A stretch of DNA of 24,248 nt, taken from positions 1-24,248 of the IMG/VR virus record IMGVR_UViG_3300008117_000714; one strand, 5' to 3'. The notes under the pieces were generated by a model, which saw only the letters and a list, made by a program, of their open reading frames with translations, did no database searches and had not been told where the DNA came from. The position numbers and the translations under genes were made by a program. Below are positions 1,164 to 24,248 of the stretch, piece after piece. This DNA is from a virus. How positions within the stretch are numbered: position 1 is the stretch's first letter; each line of letters opens with the position of its first letter.

Positions 1164-3242
1164 TTATCCTCCAAATACTATTGACATTGCAATAGCCTTT
1201 CCTGTTGATACTGTGTTTGTTAATTTTGATCCGTCACCAATGAAATAACTAGCTGTAACATTTCCTGCTGTATTGACCCTATTGACAAATAATTGATTTA
1301 AATAATTGCTCGAAGACCCTATACTATACGTGTTTGAGGCGGCGGCTAAAATATTACCATTTAGTGTAGCTTCGCCAATAGTTAAAGCGTAAACTGAAGT
1401 AGGATCTCCTGCAATGTTTCCTGTGATAGGAGGATCTGTATTTGCTGTAAATTTATTTCCTGTGCCTGACGAAAAAGCAGTGCCATTCGCTGCCCAGAAA
1501 ATTCCAGTATCAGTCTGAATACCATAGGCTCTCAAATTACCTGAATTTGGATTGTAAGTTAACGATGTATTGACGTTTTGCGCTGCATTTCCGGTGGTTG
1601 CATTTACAAACGAAACATATGCAGTGCCTGATGAAATGTTTGATGTAATCTGTGTGTTGATAGCATTGGTGGCAGTGCCGGCTGTGCCATCTATTCCAAC
1701 GCCAGTCAGTACCTGTGAAGCACTAGCTCGATTGTAATTGACATCTGTTGTGCCAATAAACAGTGTTCCGTATATGGTTCCATTTAGGCCGCCGGCAAAA
1801 ATATTGCCTGCCACACCCATACCACCTGCCAACACCACTGCACCGGTAATAGTGCTTGTTGAGGTCGTGGTGTCGGTAAACACAATGTTACCAGTGGCAT
1901 CATCGTAAATTATATTAGTGCCACCTAATGTTCCACCGTTATTGTATTGTATTGCGCCATCTAGTCCTGTAGACGGACCGCCAATTGGGGTATTGTTGCC
2001 AGCCCAATATAAACCTGAAGTATATAATGATTCTGAATAAATGTTGCCGCTGACGCCGGCGCCACCAACTACAACTAAAGCCCCGCTTGCTACACTTGTA
2101 CTGGCTACTCCCGATGCGGCTACTATATTACCACTAGACGTAATTGTTGTTCCTACGTGTAAAGCTCCGCCTATTCCTACTCCGCCAACAACAACTAACG
2201 CTCCAGTGGTGGTGTTTGTACTTGCTGTTCCTGAATAAGCAACAATGTTGCCACCACTCTTCAGTGTTAGCGTGTTATTTAGATCATTAAAGTAACCAGA
2301 ATTTGGAGTAACAGTTCCAATGGGAGTATTTTGTAAACTGGCAGCACTAAGTAAACCGCCAACGTAAGTGTCACCACTTACACCCATTCCGCCTCTGACA
2401 ACTAATGCACCTGTAGTTGTGCTTGAACTGGCTGTGCCTGAATTGGCCACTATATTACCGCCAACATTCAATCTTCCACTGATGCCGGCACCGCCGCTAA
2501 CTCTTAATGCACCAGTGGTGTTGTTTGAACTTACTGTTGTATTTGCTAGTGTTAGTTCACCAGACTTTATAGTACCGTAGGTGTTACCAGTAAAAACATT
2601 TCCAACTTCTCTACCACTATCATACCATTCTAGATAACCACTATCATTGGCTCGGCCTAAGAATGCGTGTTCGTCTTGATAATCATAGTAATGAAATTTT
2701 AAACCAATGTCTTTGCCGTCGTTAAATGTCCACGGTGCAAGATTGGCCTGAGTATGTAAGTCTATGACAGCATCACTTATGCTAAGATTTTGCTGTCCTA
2801 TTGTAAAAATATTGCCTTCGACCTGCAAATTACCAGTGATCTTGGCAGTAGCAAAAACAGCATTGCCACTGCTTAAATTGTCTGCAACAAATGTTGATGC
2901 ATATGACGCAGCAGGTGCGCTAAAAGGATTACCGTTTGAATATAAAAAATTATCTGTTCTTAAAGAGTTAACTATTATTGTGCCAGCTGTAACATTTGCG
3001 TAACTAGTTACAGTTAAATTGCTGTTTGTGATGCCAGTATCATCAGTGAATGCTACAACAAATGAATTACCGCTTTCGCTCCACACTAAAGCTACGTTAG
3101 ATTTTACACCTAAATTTCTATTAACCAGAAATCCAACATCAACATTGGCCACAGTGGAATCGCTATTTAAAAGCGTGATAGGATCTTGAAGCTTTGCTTT
3201 AGTGGTATCAGATTGTATAAATCTAGTTCTGGTTAATGCCAT
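1164..3242 (-). CDS. Repetitive tail-fibre-like protein (692 aa)
   Basis: This is a long Gly/Asn/Thr/Ser-rich protein, the first gene of the unit driven by the late promoter at 3264-3271. Residues 31-70 hold a module shared with other proteins here (DVGFLVNRNLG...NVALVW). Residues 155-225 carry a motif known from marine T4-like fibres (IDLHTQANLAPWTFNDGKD, then HYYDYQDEHAFLGRANDSGY). Five copies of a beta-repeat, GAL(V/R)V-x-GG-x-G(V/I)-x-G, follow at about 242-262, 275-297, 344-365, 386-402 and 465-484. The C-terminal part has an IGSSSNYLNQLFVNRV...FIGDGSKLT segment and ends AIAMSIVFGG, a tail also seen in variant form in the 349-residue protein here. The fold is probably an extended trimeric beta-structure. 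Which fibre it belongs to cannot be told. Confidence 0.88.
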   Translation of the reverse strand: MALTRTRFIQSDTTKAKLQDPITLLNSDSTVANVDVGFLVNRNLGVKSNVALVWSESGNSFVVAFTDDTGITNSNLTVTSYANVTAGTIIVNSLRTDNFLYSNGNPFSAPAASYASTFVADNLSSGNAVFATAKITGNLQVEGNIFTIGQQNLSISDAVIDLHTQANLAPWTFNDGKDIGLKFHYYDYQDEHAFLGRANDSGYLEWYDSGREVGNVFTGNTYGTIKSGELTLANTTVSSNNTTGALRVSGGAGISGRLNVGGNIVANSGTASSSTTTGALVVRGGMGVSGDTYVGGLLSAASLQNTPIGTVTPNSGYFNDLNNTLTLKSGGNIVAYSGTASTNTTTGALVVVGGVGIGGALHVGTTITSSGNIVAASGVASTSVASGALVVVGGAGVSGNIYSESLYTSGLYWAGNNTPIGGPSTGLDGAIQYNNGGTLGGTNIIYDDATGNIVFTDTTTSTSTITGAVVLAGGMGVAGNIFAGGLNGTIYGTLFIGTTDVNYNRASASQVLTGVGIDGTAGTATNAINTQITSNISSGTAYVSFVNATTGNAAQNVNTSLTYNPNSGNLRAYGIQTDTGIFWAANGTAFSSGTGNKFTANTDPPITGNIAGDPTSVYALTIGEATLNGNILAAASNTYSIGSSSNYLNQLFVNRVNTAGNVTASYFIGDGSKLTNTVSTGKAIAMSIVFGG

Positions 3243-3263
3243 TGCGAATCCAAATAGTTTTTG

Positions 3264-3271
3264 TATTTATG
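3264..3271 (-). promoter_or_regulatory. T4-type late promoter (CATAAATA)
   Basis: On the minus strand this reads CATAAATA, one base from the T4 late consensus TATAAATA. It lies 22 bases before the ATG at 3242 and just downstream of the terminator of the preceding gene, so it restarts transcription for the 692-residue fibre gene and those beyond it. The leader would be only about 15 bases. Confidence 0.75.
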
Positions 3272-3272
3272 G

Positions 3273-3301
3273 AAAAAACAAAAGGGTCATTTAGACCCTT
3301 T
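3273..3301 (-). terminator. Rho-independent terminator after the 260-aa fibre gene
   Basis: An 8-bp stem (AAAGGGTC/GACCCTTT) with a 5-base loop is followed on the minus strand by TTTTGTTTTTT. It lies 23 bases beyond the stop of the gene at 3324-4106 and closes the unit that starts at 14752-14759. Confidence 0.88.
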
Positions 3302-3323
3302 TTTGTGTATATTTGGGTTACTA

Positions 3324-4106
3324 TTACAATCTGCCCACTACCACTTCAATGACTCCTTCTACACCATCAAAGTTTTCCAGTGCTTTACCTATTACTGTGC
3401 CAATCTGCGGGTTATGATCTGGCCTAGCAAACCCGCTACCAGCACTTACCAACATGTCCCCTTTGGCAATTTTACCGCGAACTTTACAAGGAACTCTTCC
3501 TAAAAGTGCTAAAGTAACTACATTTGGCCCGTTTAGGCTACCATTCATTAAATGAGCAGGATTAGTAGAAACTACACCGGCCACTCGTCTGGAACCATCT
3601 TCGGCTATGGTGACTTCAGCTGCGCCGCCAAATTCTAGCACTGTACCAGGTTCATAGGAATTGTCAGCTTGATAGTTTTCTGCCAAGTCGGCGTATCTTG
3701 CTTGAGTTGATACTCCGTAAAATGTTCCCCACCAGCTGGTTGTTGTACCAAGATTTTGTGTGGTATTTGCTGTAGGAACCATCCAGCCAGCAGTAAACAA
3801 ATTGCCTGATATTCCTACCCCGCCCCTGACTACCAAGGCACCAGTAGCTGCATTACTACTTAAAGTAGTTGCTTCTAATACAAGATTTGAACTGAACGCC
3901 CCTGTGGTACCTTTTACAGTTCCTCCATCTAGGTGAACAGCAAGATTAGAATTTGTAGCAGTCCCGCTGAATGTGGAAGCATAAATTGTACTAAACTGAA
4001 AACTAGTATTGCCAAGGAATACGTTGGCATTAGCCTGAGGTTGAATGTTTCCATTAAACCTTATTGGATTTGGTCCAAATGCTGTATCTATTCTTTGTAA
4101 TGCCAT
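3324..4106 (-). CDS. Fibre-associated protein with conserved C-terminal YADLAENY/GRVPCKV domain (260 aa)
   Basis: Residues 1-60 resemble a fibre attachment or linker segment (ANVFLGNTSFQFSTIYA). One beta-repeat, GALVVRGGVGISGNL, lies at 89-103. Residues 137-260 form a compact domain: RYADLAENY, EPGTVLEFGG, VAGVVSTNPAHLMN, LLGRVPCKVRGKIAKGDML, GTVIGKALENFDG, ending EVVVGRL. I know this domain from C-termini of marine T4-like fibre proteins. Its layout faintly recalls the self-cleaving or chaperone domains at the ends of other phage tailspikes (Peptidase_G2-like), but I see no proof of catalysis. It is the last gene before the terminator at 3273-3301. The start follows AAGGAA by a normal spacing. 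It could cap or fold one of the long fibres encoded upstream. Confidence 0.85.
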   Translation of the reverse strand: MALQRIDTAFGPNPIRFNGNIQPQANANVFLGNTSFQFSTIYASTFSGTATNSNLAVHLDGGTVKGTTGAFSSNLVLEATTLSSNAATGALVVRGGVGISGNLFTAGWMVPTANTTQNLGTTTSWWGTFYGVSTQARYADLAENYQADNSYEPGTVLEFGGAAEVTIAEDGSRRVAGVVSTNPAHLMNGSLNGPNVVTLALLGRVPCKVRGKIAKGDMLVSAGSGFARPDHNPQIGTVIGKALENFDGVEGVIEVVVGRL

Positions 4107-14349: not shown

Positions 14350-14730
14350 TTATAATACTAACGCATAAACTTGTGCTGAAGTAACTGCGGTTGTAGATCC
14401 AGTTTGGATAGCCTCATATGTGCTACCATCCTCGGTTAATACCCATTTGCCCAATGTCTCGTTCCATAGTAGAGCAACATTAGCAAAAGACCCTCTATCT
14501 ACATTCAATCCTGCTGTTACAAGAGTAACACCCGGGCCAGTTTCACCTGCGTTGACTGTAATAATGTTATCTGTGATATTTAAATCAGTTTTAGTAATTG
14601 CTGTAGCGTTTCCACCAACATAAAGGTTTCCTTGTACGTACACAGTGTGTGTACTCAAAGTAATGTTCGCATTTGCCTTAATCTTGTTGGTAATTAGGTA
14701 ATCGTCGTTAAGACTTTTTACTACTGGCAT
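14350..14730 (-). CDS. Small fibre-module protein, first gene of the fibre operon (126 aa)
   Basis: The chain reads MPVVKSLNDDYLITNKIKAN, then a fibre connector (VYVQGNLYVGGNATAI), then DNIITVNAGETGPGVTLVTA and DRGSFANVALLWNETLGKWV. The last two segments are the same module as residues 31-70 of the 692-residue fibre and the N-terminus of the large split fibre. It is thus an isolated N-terminal fibre module, possibly an adaptor or a co-assembling short subunit. Its end, SAQVYALVL, resembles the C-terminal tails of other proteins here. It is the first gene behind the late promoter at 14752-14759, with AAGGAT as ribosome site. Confidence 0.82.
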   Translation of the reverse strand: MPVVKSLNDDYLITNKIKANANITLSTHTVYVQGNLYVGGNATAITKTDLNITDNIITVNAGETGPGVTLVTAGLNVDRGSFANVALLWNETLGKWVLTEDGSTYEAIQTGSTTAVTSAQVYALVL

Positions 14731-14751
14731 TTTAGATATCCTTATTCAGTG

Positions 14752-14759
14752 TATTTATG
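14752..14759 (-). promoter_or_regulatory. T4-type late promoter (CATAAATA)
   Basis: CATAAATA on the minus strand, 22 bases before the ATG at 14730 and directly downstream of the terminator at 14785-14808. It has the same sequence and nearly the same spacing to the start codon as the site at 3264-3271, which supports both. Confidence 0.77.
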
Positions 14760-14784
14760 CATACATAAATTTGAATTACCTAAT

Positions 14785-14808
14785 AAAAAACCCGCCGAAG
14801 CGGGTTTT
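14785..14808 (-). terminator. Rho-independent terminator with UUCG loop
   Basis: On the minus strand a 9-bp stem (AAAACCCGC/GCGGGTTTT) closes a TTCG loop of the extra-stable cUUCGg kind and runs into TTTTTTATTA. It ends the one-gene unit at 14828-15337. Confidence 0.93.
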
Positions 14809-14827
14809 AATTTTGATGTTTTATGTA

Positions 14828-15337
14828 TCAATGAGTAAAAACATTAGCAAAACCACTTGTGCCACTAGTGGCTACATAATCGCTACCACGATATTTGTAA
14901 CGTACATCGCTTTGGTCCCATACGTACTTGTTACTAATACGACTTACATAAAAAGCTGTGTTGCTAGTGTTGTATCCGGCAATTGAGCAAGTACTTGCTG
15001 TGCTGCCTGGAGTCCCATTGGCTGCATCAGCTCCTGCAGCTAGGGTACAAATTGTAGCACTGGCGTTAGCGTGAGTATGATTTTCAACTGCGCCTACTGC
15101 ATTTGCAACAAAGAAAGTGGTTGCACCTTTCTGTGCAATAATATAAGCATTGCTATGTAAAATGCCTGAACTATCTCTAAACTGTACTTTGACTGTTTTT
15201 ACACCAGTAGATGTAATCCACTGTGGACGTCCGCCAGTACTACCAATTGTACTACCACTTACTGGTGGATTGAAAACTTCCTGGTCGACTAAAGTTCCGT
15301 CGGCTCTTTTGTGACTGATTTTTAAACCTCTTGCCAT
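14828..15337 (-). CDS. Unknown protein encoded as its own unit after the capsid gene (169 aa)
   Basis: I choose ATG 15337 (MARGLKISHKRADGT), which has AAGGAG eight bases upstream; a longer frame from 15409 would start on top of the late promoter. The chain has PPVSGSTIGSTGGRPQW near residue 25, then KTVKVQFRDSSGILHSNAY, an Ala/Gly/Thr-rich middle (CTLAAGADAANGTPGSTAST) and a tyrosine-rich end (SNKYVWDQSDVRYKYRGSDY). No family is recognised with confidence. It has its own late promoter, an approximately 66-base leader and a strong terminator, and directly follows the major capsid gene. That setting suits an abundant virion protein, such as a capsid decoration protein, but this is inference from arrangement only. 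Confidence 0.85.
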   Translation of the reverse strand: MARGLKISHKRADGTLVDQEVFNPPVSGSTIGSTGGRPQWITSTGVKTVKVQFRDSSGILHSNAYIIAQKGATTFFVANAVGAVENHTHANASATICTLAAGADAANGTPGSTASTCSIAGYNTSNTAFYVSRISNKYVWDQSDVRYKYRGSDYVATSGTSGFANVFTH

Positions 15338-21482: not shown

Positions 21483-21490
21483 TATTTATT
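21483..21490 (-). promoter_or_regulatory. T4-type late promoter of the head operon (AATAAATA)
   Basis: AATAAATA on the minus strand, 22 bases before the portal start and just downstream of the tape-measure stop. The spacing to the start codon is the same as for the sites at 3264-3271 and 14752-14759. Confidence 0.78.
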
Positions 21491-21493
21491 GCG

Positions 21494-23776
21494 TTAAGAT
21501 AACTCATTGGCCATTCTTCTAGTGTTGTCTGCTGTCTCTTTAAACTGTTCTAGCATGTCTTCAAATACAGATTTATCACGCATTGCCTGTAACAATTCAT
21601 CAAGTTTACCTTCGGTTTTTTGATTCTGTGCTGCAAGTTGATTGGTAATTCCTGTCATTGATGCTGTAACTGTGTCCACAATTTGATTTACTTCTTCGGG
21701 TGCAGTTGACCCTGCTCGTCCAGCAGCACCGTCTAACATTTGTTTTGGATCTGGAATACTTAATTCACTTAAAAAATCAAGAGCTTGTTTGGGAAAAATT
21801 GCTTCTGTACCATGGAATTCAACAAGTTTGGTGTATCCAGTACTAGGCCCGGACACTATACCGCCTTTGGCAAATCCTAATTTTTCAGCCACTGCTTTAC
21901 CTAATCTTGTTACTACACCTCCTAAGTCTTTGGCCGCTTCTTTTAAACTTTTAACACTATCAGCCAGACCTGTAGCAACTGTATCCATGGCCTTGTTAAT
22001 CATTCCTCCCGGTTCGGCTGCAAATCTGCCTTGTACCAGTTTAAGCACATTGTCTAATGCTTTGGCATCCATTTTTTGTTGTTCTTTGTATGCAGCTAGT
22101 GCACCTCGACCGTCGTTCATTGATAGCAAGTACAAATTCATTGCTTGCGACAAACTGCCCATTTGTGGTTTTAGATTGTCACGTACAGCTCGATCTAAGT
22201 CCATTATGCTAGTTCTAAGTGGATCCACACTGGTAGTAAGTTGTTTCAACTGCTGTACTGTTGTTTCAATTTGTCCGTTTTCAGCTTCTCTAGCAGCTAT
22301 ACCTTTTCGTCCTAGTTCAGCCTGCTTTTCCATCATACCTGTTACATCTGCCAGTTTGCCGGTGGCCAACGTAACAGCACCGTATGTTTCTCCAGCATCT
22401 AAGGCTTCTTTCTTAAGTGCCTCACCGTATTCTGCTACACGTTTCTGATAATTTTCGTTTACTTGTTCGCTAGTCAATGCAGAGTTTTGCATATCTGCAT
22501 AAGTTTCTTCTAACAGTCGCTTACGTGTGGGACTTGCTGCCAACAATTGATTTAGATTTTGATCAACAATAGTGCCATCAAAGGCTGTCATTTGTTGAAG
22601 ACCTTTTTGTATCTCTGGTCCCATACTGGCCACGGCACTAGTAAATCTTTCAAATGCACCTGGCCCTTGTTTTGCCAATTTGGCTTGTACTGCTAATTGT
22701 TCGCTGGCCTGCTTGGCTCTTGCCTGTGCTTGTTTGGCTTCTTCTCCGGTAAACATTGACACAGCTCTAAGATTTTTCAAGTATTCGGCATGTCCTACAG
22801 CAACTTCTTTGTCGCTCATTTTTTGCAACTGGCCGGATTTGTTTAGCATATCCATATATTGGATCAGGCCATCAGCTTGTTCTTCGGCTGAATATCCTGC
22901 TAGTGCTAATTCTTTTCTTAAATCTCTACCGCCTTTGGCTAATTCTGTCAAGGCCAAATTCACTGTTCTAAACTTCTTTACACCGCCAGTGACTGTGTTA
23001 CCAAACTCCATCAAATCTTGTTTGTTTCTAACAACTACCTTAGAAAATTCCTCTTGATAAAGTTGTGCATCTCCGGCAGCATCGCGCATGCCTATAAAAC
23101 CGCCAGTTATGGCTGCACCATTTTTTTCCATCATTGAAAAAGATAAACCGGTATTGGTTATTTCTTTTTGCAACATCTGCAATTGTTTTGCATCTAGTTC
23201 TGCAAGTCCTTTACCTAAACCAAAAGCTCCAGAGGCCAAGCCCGAGATAGCAGCTATGCCTCGCGCAATTGGATTAGGAATCAGTGCCATAGTTGTAGCA
23301 ACTGCTTCAGTGCCTGCAGCCAACTTGTCAAATAATCTTATCTGACTTTCTATACTGGCATTTTGTTGTGCAAACAGGGTATCAATACCGCTTGCTCCTG
23401 CTTGATATGCAGCTATAGATGTATAAAGTTGATTGGTAACAAAATTTACAGCTTCAACCAAACCAGCCTTGAGCAATCCTGCCGACATCTGTCCAGCAGC
23501 ATCTGCTGTAACTTTTGCTGCCATAGCCTGTGCATCTTTCAGCATGTTCATGCCAGCTGTAGACTGTCTTGTAGCAGTGTCAAGGTTGCCAAAATCACTC
23601 ATCAACTGCTGTAGCGCAGCAGCATTGGATTGAATTGTTCCTGTGCCACGCTGCATTTCCATTCGCAGCCTAGCCATTGATTGCCCAACAGCCTGCACAC
23701 TTGCACGGGAATTGTTAGCTATTGCACCCAGTTGTTGCAACGATTGAAGTGCTGCTTGGATATCTGCATCTGCCAT
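21494..23776 (-). CDS. Tail tape-measure protein (760 aa)
   Basis: Tape-measure proteins set tail length and are passed into the cell with the DNA. The chain is mostly Ala/Gln/Leu/Lys-rich helix, with a hydrophobic stretch at about 153-192 (AVATTMALIPNPIARGIAAI, then GLASGAFGLGKGL) suited to membrane insertion. A C-terminal motif typical of tape-measure proteins spans 638-663, GGIVSGPSTGYTK then FHGTEAIFPK. The end (730-760) is again charged helix. At about 1.5 angstrom per residue the predicted tail is near 110 nm, similar to T4; T4 gp29 has about 590 residues and I see no clear sequence match with it. It starts from one of two opposed late promoters shared with the baseplate-hub gene. A large structural core protein is a less likely reading. 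Confidence 0.85.
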   Translation of the reverse strand: MADADIQAALQSLQQLGAIANNSRASVQAVGQSMARLRMEMQRGTGTIQSNAAALQQLMSDFGNLDTATRQSTAGMNMLKDAQAMAAKVTADAAGQMSAGLLKAGLVEAVNFVTNQLYTSIAAYQAGASGIDTLFAQQNASIESQIRLFDKLAAGTEAVATTMALIPNPIARGIAAISGLASGAFGLGKGLAELDAKQLQMLQKEITNTGLSFSMMEKNGAAITGGFIGMRDAAGDAQLYQEEFSKVVVRNKQDLMEFGNTVTGGVKKFRTVNLALTELAKGGRDLRKELALAGYSAEEQADGLIQYMDMLNKSGQLQKMSDKEVAVGHAEYLKNLRAVSMFTGEEAKQAQARAKQASEQLAVQAKLAKQGPGAFERFTSAVASMGPEIQKGLQQMTAFDGTIVDQNLNQLLAASPTRKRLLEETYADMQNSALTSEQVNENYQKRVAEYGEALKKEALDAGETYGAVTLATGKLADVTGMMEKQAELGRKGIAAREAENGQIETTVQQLKQLTTSVDPLRTSIMDLDRAVRDNLKPQMGSLSQAMNLYLLSMNDGRGALAAYKEQQKMDAKALDNVLKLVQGRFAAEPGGMINKAMDTVATGLADSVKSLKEAAKDLGGVVTRLGKAVAEKLGFAKGGIVSGPSTGYTKLVEFHGTEAIFPKQALDFLSELSIPDPKQMLDGAAGRAGSTAPEEVNQIVDTVTASMTGITNQLAAQNQKTEGKLDELLQAMRDKSVFEDMLEQFKETADNTRRMANELS

Positions 23777-23786
23777 AATTTCTGCC

Positions 23787-23794
23787 TATAAATA
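23787..23794 (+). promoter_or_regulatory. T4-type late promoter, plus strand (TATAAATA)
   Basis: Exact T4 late consensus on the plus strand, with the expected start near 23801 and a leader of about 25 bases before the ATG at 23826. It drives the baseplate-hub gene. Confidence 0.85.
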
Positions 23795-23807
23795 TAGTAT
23801 TATCAAT

Positions 23808-23815
23808 TATTTATA
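23808..23815 (-). promoter_or_regulatory. T4-type late promoter, minus strand (TATAAATA)
   Basis: Exact T4 late consensus on the minus strand, with the expected start near 23802 and a leader of about 25 bases before the tape-measure ATG at 23776. Confidence 0.85.
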
Positions 23816-23825
23816 GGAATCAAAA

Positions 23826-24248
23826 ATGGATCAAAAACCCGTAAATCCTTTACGAGCACATTTCAGACAGCCCGCAATTTATTTAAAATTACCCAGTGGC
23901 GGACAATTTTGGAACGGTGGTTTAGATTTACCAGCAGTGGGAGAGATACCCATCTATCCAATGACTGCCCGGGATGAAATCCTGCTTAAAACACCTGATG
24001 CTTTGTTGAATGGTCAAGGCATAATAGATGTAATTCAAAGTTGTTGCCCTAACATCACCGATGCTTGGCAAATGCCCAGCGTTGATGTTGATGCTGTACT
24101 GATAGCAATTAGAATTGCCAGCTACGGCACTACCATGTCTGTGGACACAACCTGCCCTAACTGCAAAACAGAAAACAATTTTGATATAGATTTAACTGGT
24201 TATTTGGACAATATTGTGTTGCCAGATTACAATCAAAAGTTCACTTAC
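23826..24248 (+). CDS. Baseplate-hub protein, T4 gp26-like (3' end outside window)
   Basis: The frame MDQKPVNPLRAHFRQPAIYL runs 141 codons to the right edge with no stop. Segments PLRAHFRQPAIYLKLPSGG, YPMTARDEILLKTPDAL, VIQSCCPNITDAWQMPS and IAIRIASYGTTM are typical of the T4 baseplate-hub family usually labelled gp26 in T4-like cyanophages. TTCPNCKTEN with its two cysteines could be half of a metal site. About 200 residues are expected in full, so roughly 60 are missing. AGGA lies seven bases before the ATG. It is the only plus-strand gene and points away from the rest, suggesting that a baseplate module begins here and continues beyond the window. The hub link fits the adjacent tape-measure gene, since the tape measure ends at the hub. 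Confidence 0.83.
   Translation, partial: MDQKPVNPLRAHFRQPAIYLKLPSGGQFWNGGLDLPAVGEIPIYPMTARDEILLKTPDALLNGQGIIDVIQSCCPNITDAWQMPSVDVDAVLIAIRIASYGTTMSVDTTCPNCKTENNFDIDLTGYLDNIVLPDYNQKFTY

Follow-up and report, generated by a model that had tools for sequence, protein, structure and literature searches.

What occupies the short gap between a baseplate gene and a head-side gene that point away from each other, and how are the two genes started from it? The question is raised by one locus near the end of a 24,248-nt virus fragment from IMG/VR (hereafter, the window). The sole occupant of this 49-nt intergenic gap is the stretch 23785–23817, which consists of CCTATAAATA, 13 nt and TATTTATAGG. It contains two exact TATAAATA boxes, at 23787–23794 on the plus strand and at 23808–23815 on the minus strand, and the boxes together with the flanking CC/GG make up a perfect 10-base inverted repeat. 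This is the arrangement described by the initial annotation, which had noted two exact matches to the T4 late consensus in such a repeat with a 13-base spacer, and it was recovered at the same positions (Table 1). Both flanking genes are late structural genes, and each box points in the direction of its own gene, 31 nt from that gene's ATG. Within 80 nt upstream of either gene, no further late box was found. An intrinsic-terminator search returned no terminator-like stem at the repeat, and Rfam gave zero matches in the window. A terminator-like stem does lie at window 23857–23837 on the minus strand, in the first hub codons and just upstream of the leftward promoter, in a region where the count of such sites is about that expected by chance. 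Single exact boxes are no rarer in the window than chance would have them (three found versus 1.8 expected, the only one besides the gap pair lying at 431–438); the weight of the observation therefore rests on the pair, its position in a 49-nt gap and its conservation.

Table 1. Features of the gap and its surroundings in the window
Feature	Position	Strand	Remark
Single late-type box CATAAATA	3264..3271	-	Upstream of ORF starting at 3242 (-)
Single late-type box CATAAATA	14752..14759	-	Upstream of ORF starting at 14730 (-)
Single late-type box AATAAATA	21483..21490	-	Upstream of portal gene 20
760-aa virion gene adjoining portal	21494..23776	-	No Pfam/PHROG match at 0.001
Putative late-promoter box for hub gene, CCTATAAATA	23785..23794	+	Complement holds AGG Shine-Dalgarno (23787-23785, -) of leftward gene
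13-nt spacer	23795..23807	.	Last 7 nt TATCAAT (23801-23807) conserved; first 4 nt vary about as much as fourfold sites
Predicted hub transcript start	23800	+	T4 rule applied to box
Predicted leftward transcript start	23802	-	T4 rule applied to box
Putative late-promoter box for leftward structural operon, CCTATAAATA on - strand (box 23815-23808)	23808..23817	-	Complement TATTTATAGG(A) holds AGGA Shine-Dalgarno (23815-23818, +) of hub gene
Baseplate hub gene (gp26-like, PF12322, phrog_150)	23826..24248	+	Truncated by window end

The profile matches bear out the hub label that the rightward gene had been given. The 760-aa gene on the other side, followed on the minus strand by profile matches to portal gp20, an S77 prohead protease and gp23, had been called a tape-measure gene; no profile match backs that label, and the positional counterparts in phages CBB, Munch and RaK2 are annotated as virion structural protein, head and packaging. 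A tape-measure identity is possible, given the room left by the alanine-rich, proline-poor composition (three relatives) and by the ORF lengths (79 complete ORFs of 639–1161 aa among the relatives, with one of 166 aa). Elsewhere in the window, at 3242–3324 and 14730–14828, a terminator-like hairpin with a T-run is followed by a single late-type box and then by the next ORF, all on the minus strand.

The initial annotation had proposed comparing this gap in related phages. From 105 distinct hub-upstream contexts, we removed 34 known only through motif-selected loci (L114–L221), which left 71 contexts from loci that had been retrieved through protein homology or taken from public phage records, not only via the motif. 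Facing NATAAATA boxes 9–17 nt apart were present in 45 of these 71 contexts, which come from relatives that are not independent of each other; two exact boxes at this distance occurred in 22 and a looser box pair in 46, while 200 dinucleotide shuffles gave means of 0.03 (maximum 1), 0.01 and 0.14, respectively. Back-to-back NATAAATA pairs were found in 0 of 71 contexts. A chance origin of the pair is ruled out by the shuffles together with the homology-only sampling. Two facing NATAAATA boxes are retained in the gap at 24 of the 27 loci found by hub similarity; the three without them (L105–L107) are distant. Single-linkage clustering of the hub proteins gave 41 clusters at 0.7 identity, 21 of which contain facing boxes (9–18 nt); at 0.6 identity facing boxes occur in just 5 of the 11 clusters, so the count of facing pairs is dominated by one clade.

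In 150 pairwise comparisons at 60–95% hub identity, which took in only sequences having a facing pair, bases -12 to -6 of both boxes were 100% identical and base -13 was 93% identical, as compared with 40% at fourfold-degenerate sites. Within the spacer, identity was 44% for the first four bases and 93% for the last seven. The latter, TATCAAT, keep a fixed distance to the right-hand box and not to the left one, and are no general feature after single late boxes.

A NATAAATA pair at 9–17 nt was missing from 26 of the 71 contexts, and a looser pair from 25. Eight of these 25 (L035, L037, L041, L042, L044, L051, L072 and L074) carry a GATAAGTA-like left box, possibly a sign that the hub gene has switched to another type of promoter; GTTAAT lies a few bases upstream in several members of this group. 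Three (L047, L058 and L070) have one GGTAAATA-type box, four have spacers of 18 (L081), 26 (L229 and L230) and 33 (L067), and in three (L080, L106 and L107) the boxes almost abut. The context of L032 was shortened by a wrongly chosen start, and the remaining six (L225, L226, L228, L231, L232 and L235) have no such pair or a different neighbour.

Spacer length bears on another claim of the initial annotation, namely that both transcripts begin at about 23801. According to the available text of PMC1524935, the T4 late box covers -13 to -6, and applying this rule to the two boxes gives predicted starts on either side of that position (Table 1). The idea of a selected common start fared less well: facing-box spacers range overall from 6 to 18, with a further value of 26, and exact coincidence of the starts is unlikely to be the selected feature because it is not conserved.

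The identity of the boxes as late promoters is supported by the phages that carry them. A gp55-family late sigma gene was found in 23 of the 23 longer records searched, including the close relative G001; gp55 was not found in the window, itself a 24,248-nt fragment. The record of L044 holds a gp55-family match with one in-frame TGA stop (G010:18162–18569). The T4-type clamp profile PF09116 matched T4 only, one of 16 T4-like records; the other 15 gave no match even though they carry gp55, and a diverged clamp could escape this profile. The heptamer ATAAATA is rare overall yet enriched immediately upstream of ORFs. It lies within 60 nt upstream of 15 ORFs in G001, 22 in G006, 10 in G007, 25 in G008 and 4 in the window, versus means of 3.4, 7.2, 1.6, 5.6 and 0.55 for permuted 7-mers; the corresponding counts over the whole contig are 21, 36, 17, 40 and 7 versus 75.8, 96.9, 14.7, 83.8 and 7.9. 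The median distance to the ATG is 21 nt for single boxes, whereas facing boxes lie 31–36 nt away. For phage CBB, the available text of PMC5259590 gives 35 places with ATAAATA, describes the motif upstream of structural genes with a predicted late role, and reports a gp55-like factor but no gp33 or gp45. With facing boxes in 45 of 71 contexts, fully identical cores and gp55 throughout the longer records, the annotated reading, in which two divergent late genes are each served by a T4-type late promoter and the two promoters face one another, is well supported as a prediction.

The arms of the repeat extend beyond the 8-base boxes, and this extension appears to have a second function. The AGGA on the plus strand and the AGG on the minus strand read naturally as Shine-Dalgarno sequences, given that on each strand 8 nt separate the outer G of the arm from the ATG. 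CC at -15/-14 was found at only 4 of 57 single late-type boxes. Of the 37 distinct arm pairs in the homology-fetched set, 22 carry CC in the left arm and 29 carry GG in the right. CC/GG is thus common in facing arms and scarce at single boxes, as expected if it is the Shine-Dalgarno sequence of the opposite gene. Judged from its bases, the 10-base repeat reads as constrained twice over: a late box of 8 bases overlaps a ribosome-binding site that lies on the opposite strand. The Shine-Dalgarno sequence lies outside the repeat in PA5oct, Munch and RaK2, so the overlap marks an environmental clade and not the whole group. This promoter/ribosome-site overlap is a new detail that goes beyond the initial annotation, and no description of it was found in the literature searched, which did not take in the main T4 genome review.

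A perfect repeat with a Shine-Dalgarno sequence in it could also be, in the main, an RNA lock: read-through RNA would fold CCUAUAAAUA/UAUUUAUAGG and hide the Shine-Dalgarno sequence, while late transcripts would start in the loop and escape, on both strands. Such a mechanism is established in T4 for e, soc, 49, I-TevI and segB, according to the available text of PMC3014915 and PMC2988022. The predicted read-through fold does place the Shine-Dalgarno sequence in a 10-bp stem (-9.0 kcal/mol on the plus strand and -10.6 kcal/mol on the minus strand), and the stem is gone in RNAs from the predicted starts. Its stability is only moderately above that of shuffled sequences (z of -1.7 and -2.0), no antisense read-through is known at the gap, and in PA5oct, Munch and RaK2 the repeat does not include a Shine-Dalgarno sequence. 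The informative pair is that at -13. It varies freely (T-A, T-G, A-A, A-G, C-A, C-G and others), and the right-box base switches between T and C together with TATAGGA and TATGGAG/TATGGGA. Pairing at this position is feasible in 23 of the 37 distinct arm pairs, versus a shuffle mean of 23.1. Since -13 pairs no more often than with shuffled partners, the result speaks for two separate constraints, one per strand, rather than for pairing at the RNA or DNA level, and the selected pairing of a box arm with a Shine-Dalgarno arm that defines the T4 hairpins is not seen here. We rejected an RNA hairpin as the selected feature on this absence of covariation; the predicted read-through hairpin could be a by-product, and the lock as the main role of the repeat is improbable.

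Still less probable is a single working promoter, with the second box kept as Shine-Dalgarno context or as a decoy. It is only with respect to the right box that TATCAAT is conserved, and 8 of 71 contexts have lost the left NATAAATA, so the boxes are not equally constrained everywhere. Against this stand the complete identity of both cores in the 150 comparisons (60–95% hub identity, facing-pair sequences only) and the lack of an alternative late box within 80 nt of either gene; moreover, a mere Shine-Dalgarno sequence does not require TATTTAT. An operator for a dimeric regulator, or some other site of protein binding or recombination, is a hardly credible reading of the palindrome despite the perfect repeat. 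A rigid dimer site would not tolerate the spacer lengths of 10 to 18 seen in the homology set, and each half is the known late box, which is also found on its own upstream of other genes.

The records directly show the boxes and their conservation, the overlap with the Shine-Dalgarno sequences and the gp55 genes of relatives. Building on them, we consider it very probable that the gap is a compact two-way start module of two inward gp55-type late promoters whose arms double as Shine-Dalgarno sequences, with activity, starts, exclusion and expression ratio as its predicted properties. Each arm (CCTATAAATA) would act as an inward-reading gp55-type late promoter whose transcript would begin in the spacer and exit through the opposite arm. 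The other strand of each arm would end in the AGG(A) Shine-Dalgarno sequence of the adjacent gene, at 8 nt from the ATG. With predicted starts no more than about 2 bp apart, the open complexes would overlap and one polymerase would occupy the site at a time; the suggestion in the initial annotation that two polymerases could hardly bind there together is a reasonable one. Its further idea of alternate firing would be replaced by an average: two identical boxes should give roughly similar initiation both ways over many replicating genomes, not strict alternation. A shared site alone would not match the amounts of the two products; equal boxes would compete, and with many genome copies the mean would approach the ratio of box strengths.

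The layout also occurs at other junctions. A scan of viral contigs for CCTATAAATA-N5-25-TATTTATAGG returned 114 stretches; counted over all loci collected, 71 distinct contexts contain the motif, 64 of them with a spacer of 11–17 out of the 5–25 allowed. The flanking-gene scan covered 10 of 16 loci and found a head closure gene (phrog_218) opposite a tube cap gene (phrog_230) in six (L117, L170, L174, L193, L196 and L218) and a wedge gene (phrog_232) opposite a tube cap gene in two (L115 and L123); L151 is a hub junction, and the profile scan gave no match for the flanking genes of L142. Where an ORF was found at the 16 loci, start codons lie 4–13 nt from the arms, with the exception of L188 and L210 (29–42 nt; spacers of 20 and 25). 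A general rule for divergent junctions was rejected: G001, G006, G007 and G008 have one facing pair (9–18 nt) per contig and 8, 12, 25 and 17 predicted divergent junctions, respectively, G006–G008 having been obtained through the motif. A more far-reaching version of the two-way module, which we put forward only tentatively and hold to be rather unlikely as a whole, would make it self-contained: each arm would serve one strand as promoter and the other as ribosome-binding site, either late gene would be fired by a single polymerase at any one time, the head-side/baseplate initiation ratio would be set by geometry, and the module would have been kept or have re-arisen at several T4-like head/baseplate junctions.

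Among public phages, facing boxes occupy the orthologous gap of PA5oct (spacer 12), Munch (14), RaK2 (12) and XaC1 (14), and those of CBB and Serratia phage BF are 26 apart; no facing pair was found at this gap in 6 of the 12 public records examined. None of the titles and abstract openings searched describes late promoters of the T4 type that face each other; as this literature did not include the main T4 genome review, a prior description may be in print. The initial annotation had regarded the layout as unusual for T4-like phages, and this view did not hold: T4 itself has facing boxes between genes 4 and 53 (TATAAATA-7-TATTTATA) and, 6 apart, between inh and segE. Two more T4 facing pairs lie at segB and I-TevI, both genes with described late-promoter hairpins. 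Five further records with divergent 4/53 genes, two labelled Tevenvirinae and three without lineage, were chosen among the matches listed (20 of 866), and all five have facing boxes (spacers 7, 7, 10, 7 and 10), making 6 of 6 with T4; phage 44RR has a different gene order at 4/53. The layout is less unusual than had been thought because it is more widespread: conserved in relatives and present at other T4 gene pairs too, it is real but not unique. As a conserved arrangement, it offers a simple natural test of how two identical, mutually exclusive promoters would share polymerase in phage late transcription, and it presents a short sequence constrained by promoter function on one strand and by translation on the other.

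Comparison with known systems further delimits the arrangement. The sigma70 bidirectional promoters of the Grainger group, as given in the available text of PMC10268837, likewise combine one site, two opposite transcripts and sequence symmetry. Their -10 elements overlap and their starts diverge, typically 18 bp apart, whereas in the window gap the boxes lie outside and the predicted starts meet inside; divergent starts 7–25 bp apart with overlapping -10 elements, as in the Warman/Grainger type, are thus not what this gap presents, with its predicted starts at 23800/23802 and its separate, facing boxes. The T4 hairpins that sequester a ribosome-binding site (e, soc, 49, I-TevI and segB; available text of PMC3014915 and PMC2988022) share a late box in one arm and a Shine-Dalgarno sequence in the other, but serve one gene and use pairing as a regulatory device, while here both arms are promoter-like and the pairing is without covariation. 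The T4 gene 26/gene 51 gap (NC_000866; L223:6442–6462) is also divergent, 50 nt long, upstream of the gp26 hub gene and equipped with two late boxes, which in contrast overlap back to back (TATTTATAAATA), the opposite topology. The closest counterpart is the T4 4/53 gap, with the same 8-bp box, divergent late genes, facing boxes and Shine-Dalgarno sequences directly outside. It differs in its gene pair, in its spacer (7, with 7 or 10 in relatives, versus 13) and in that its Shine-Dalgarno sequences lie outside the box without overlapping it, whereas they overlap in the window gap. The T4 4/53 gap corrects the idea of an exotic layout and provides a ready laboratory case.
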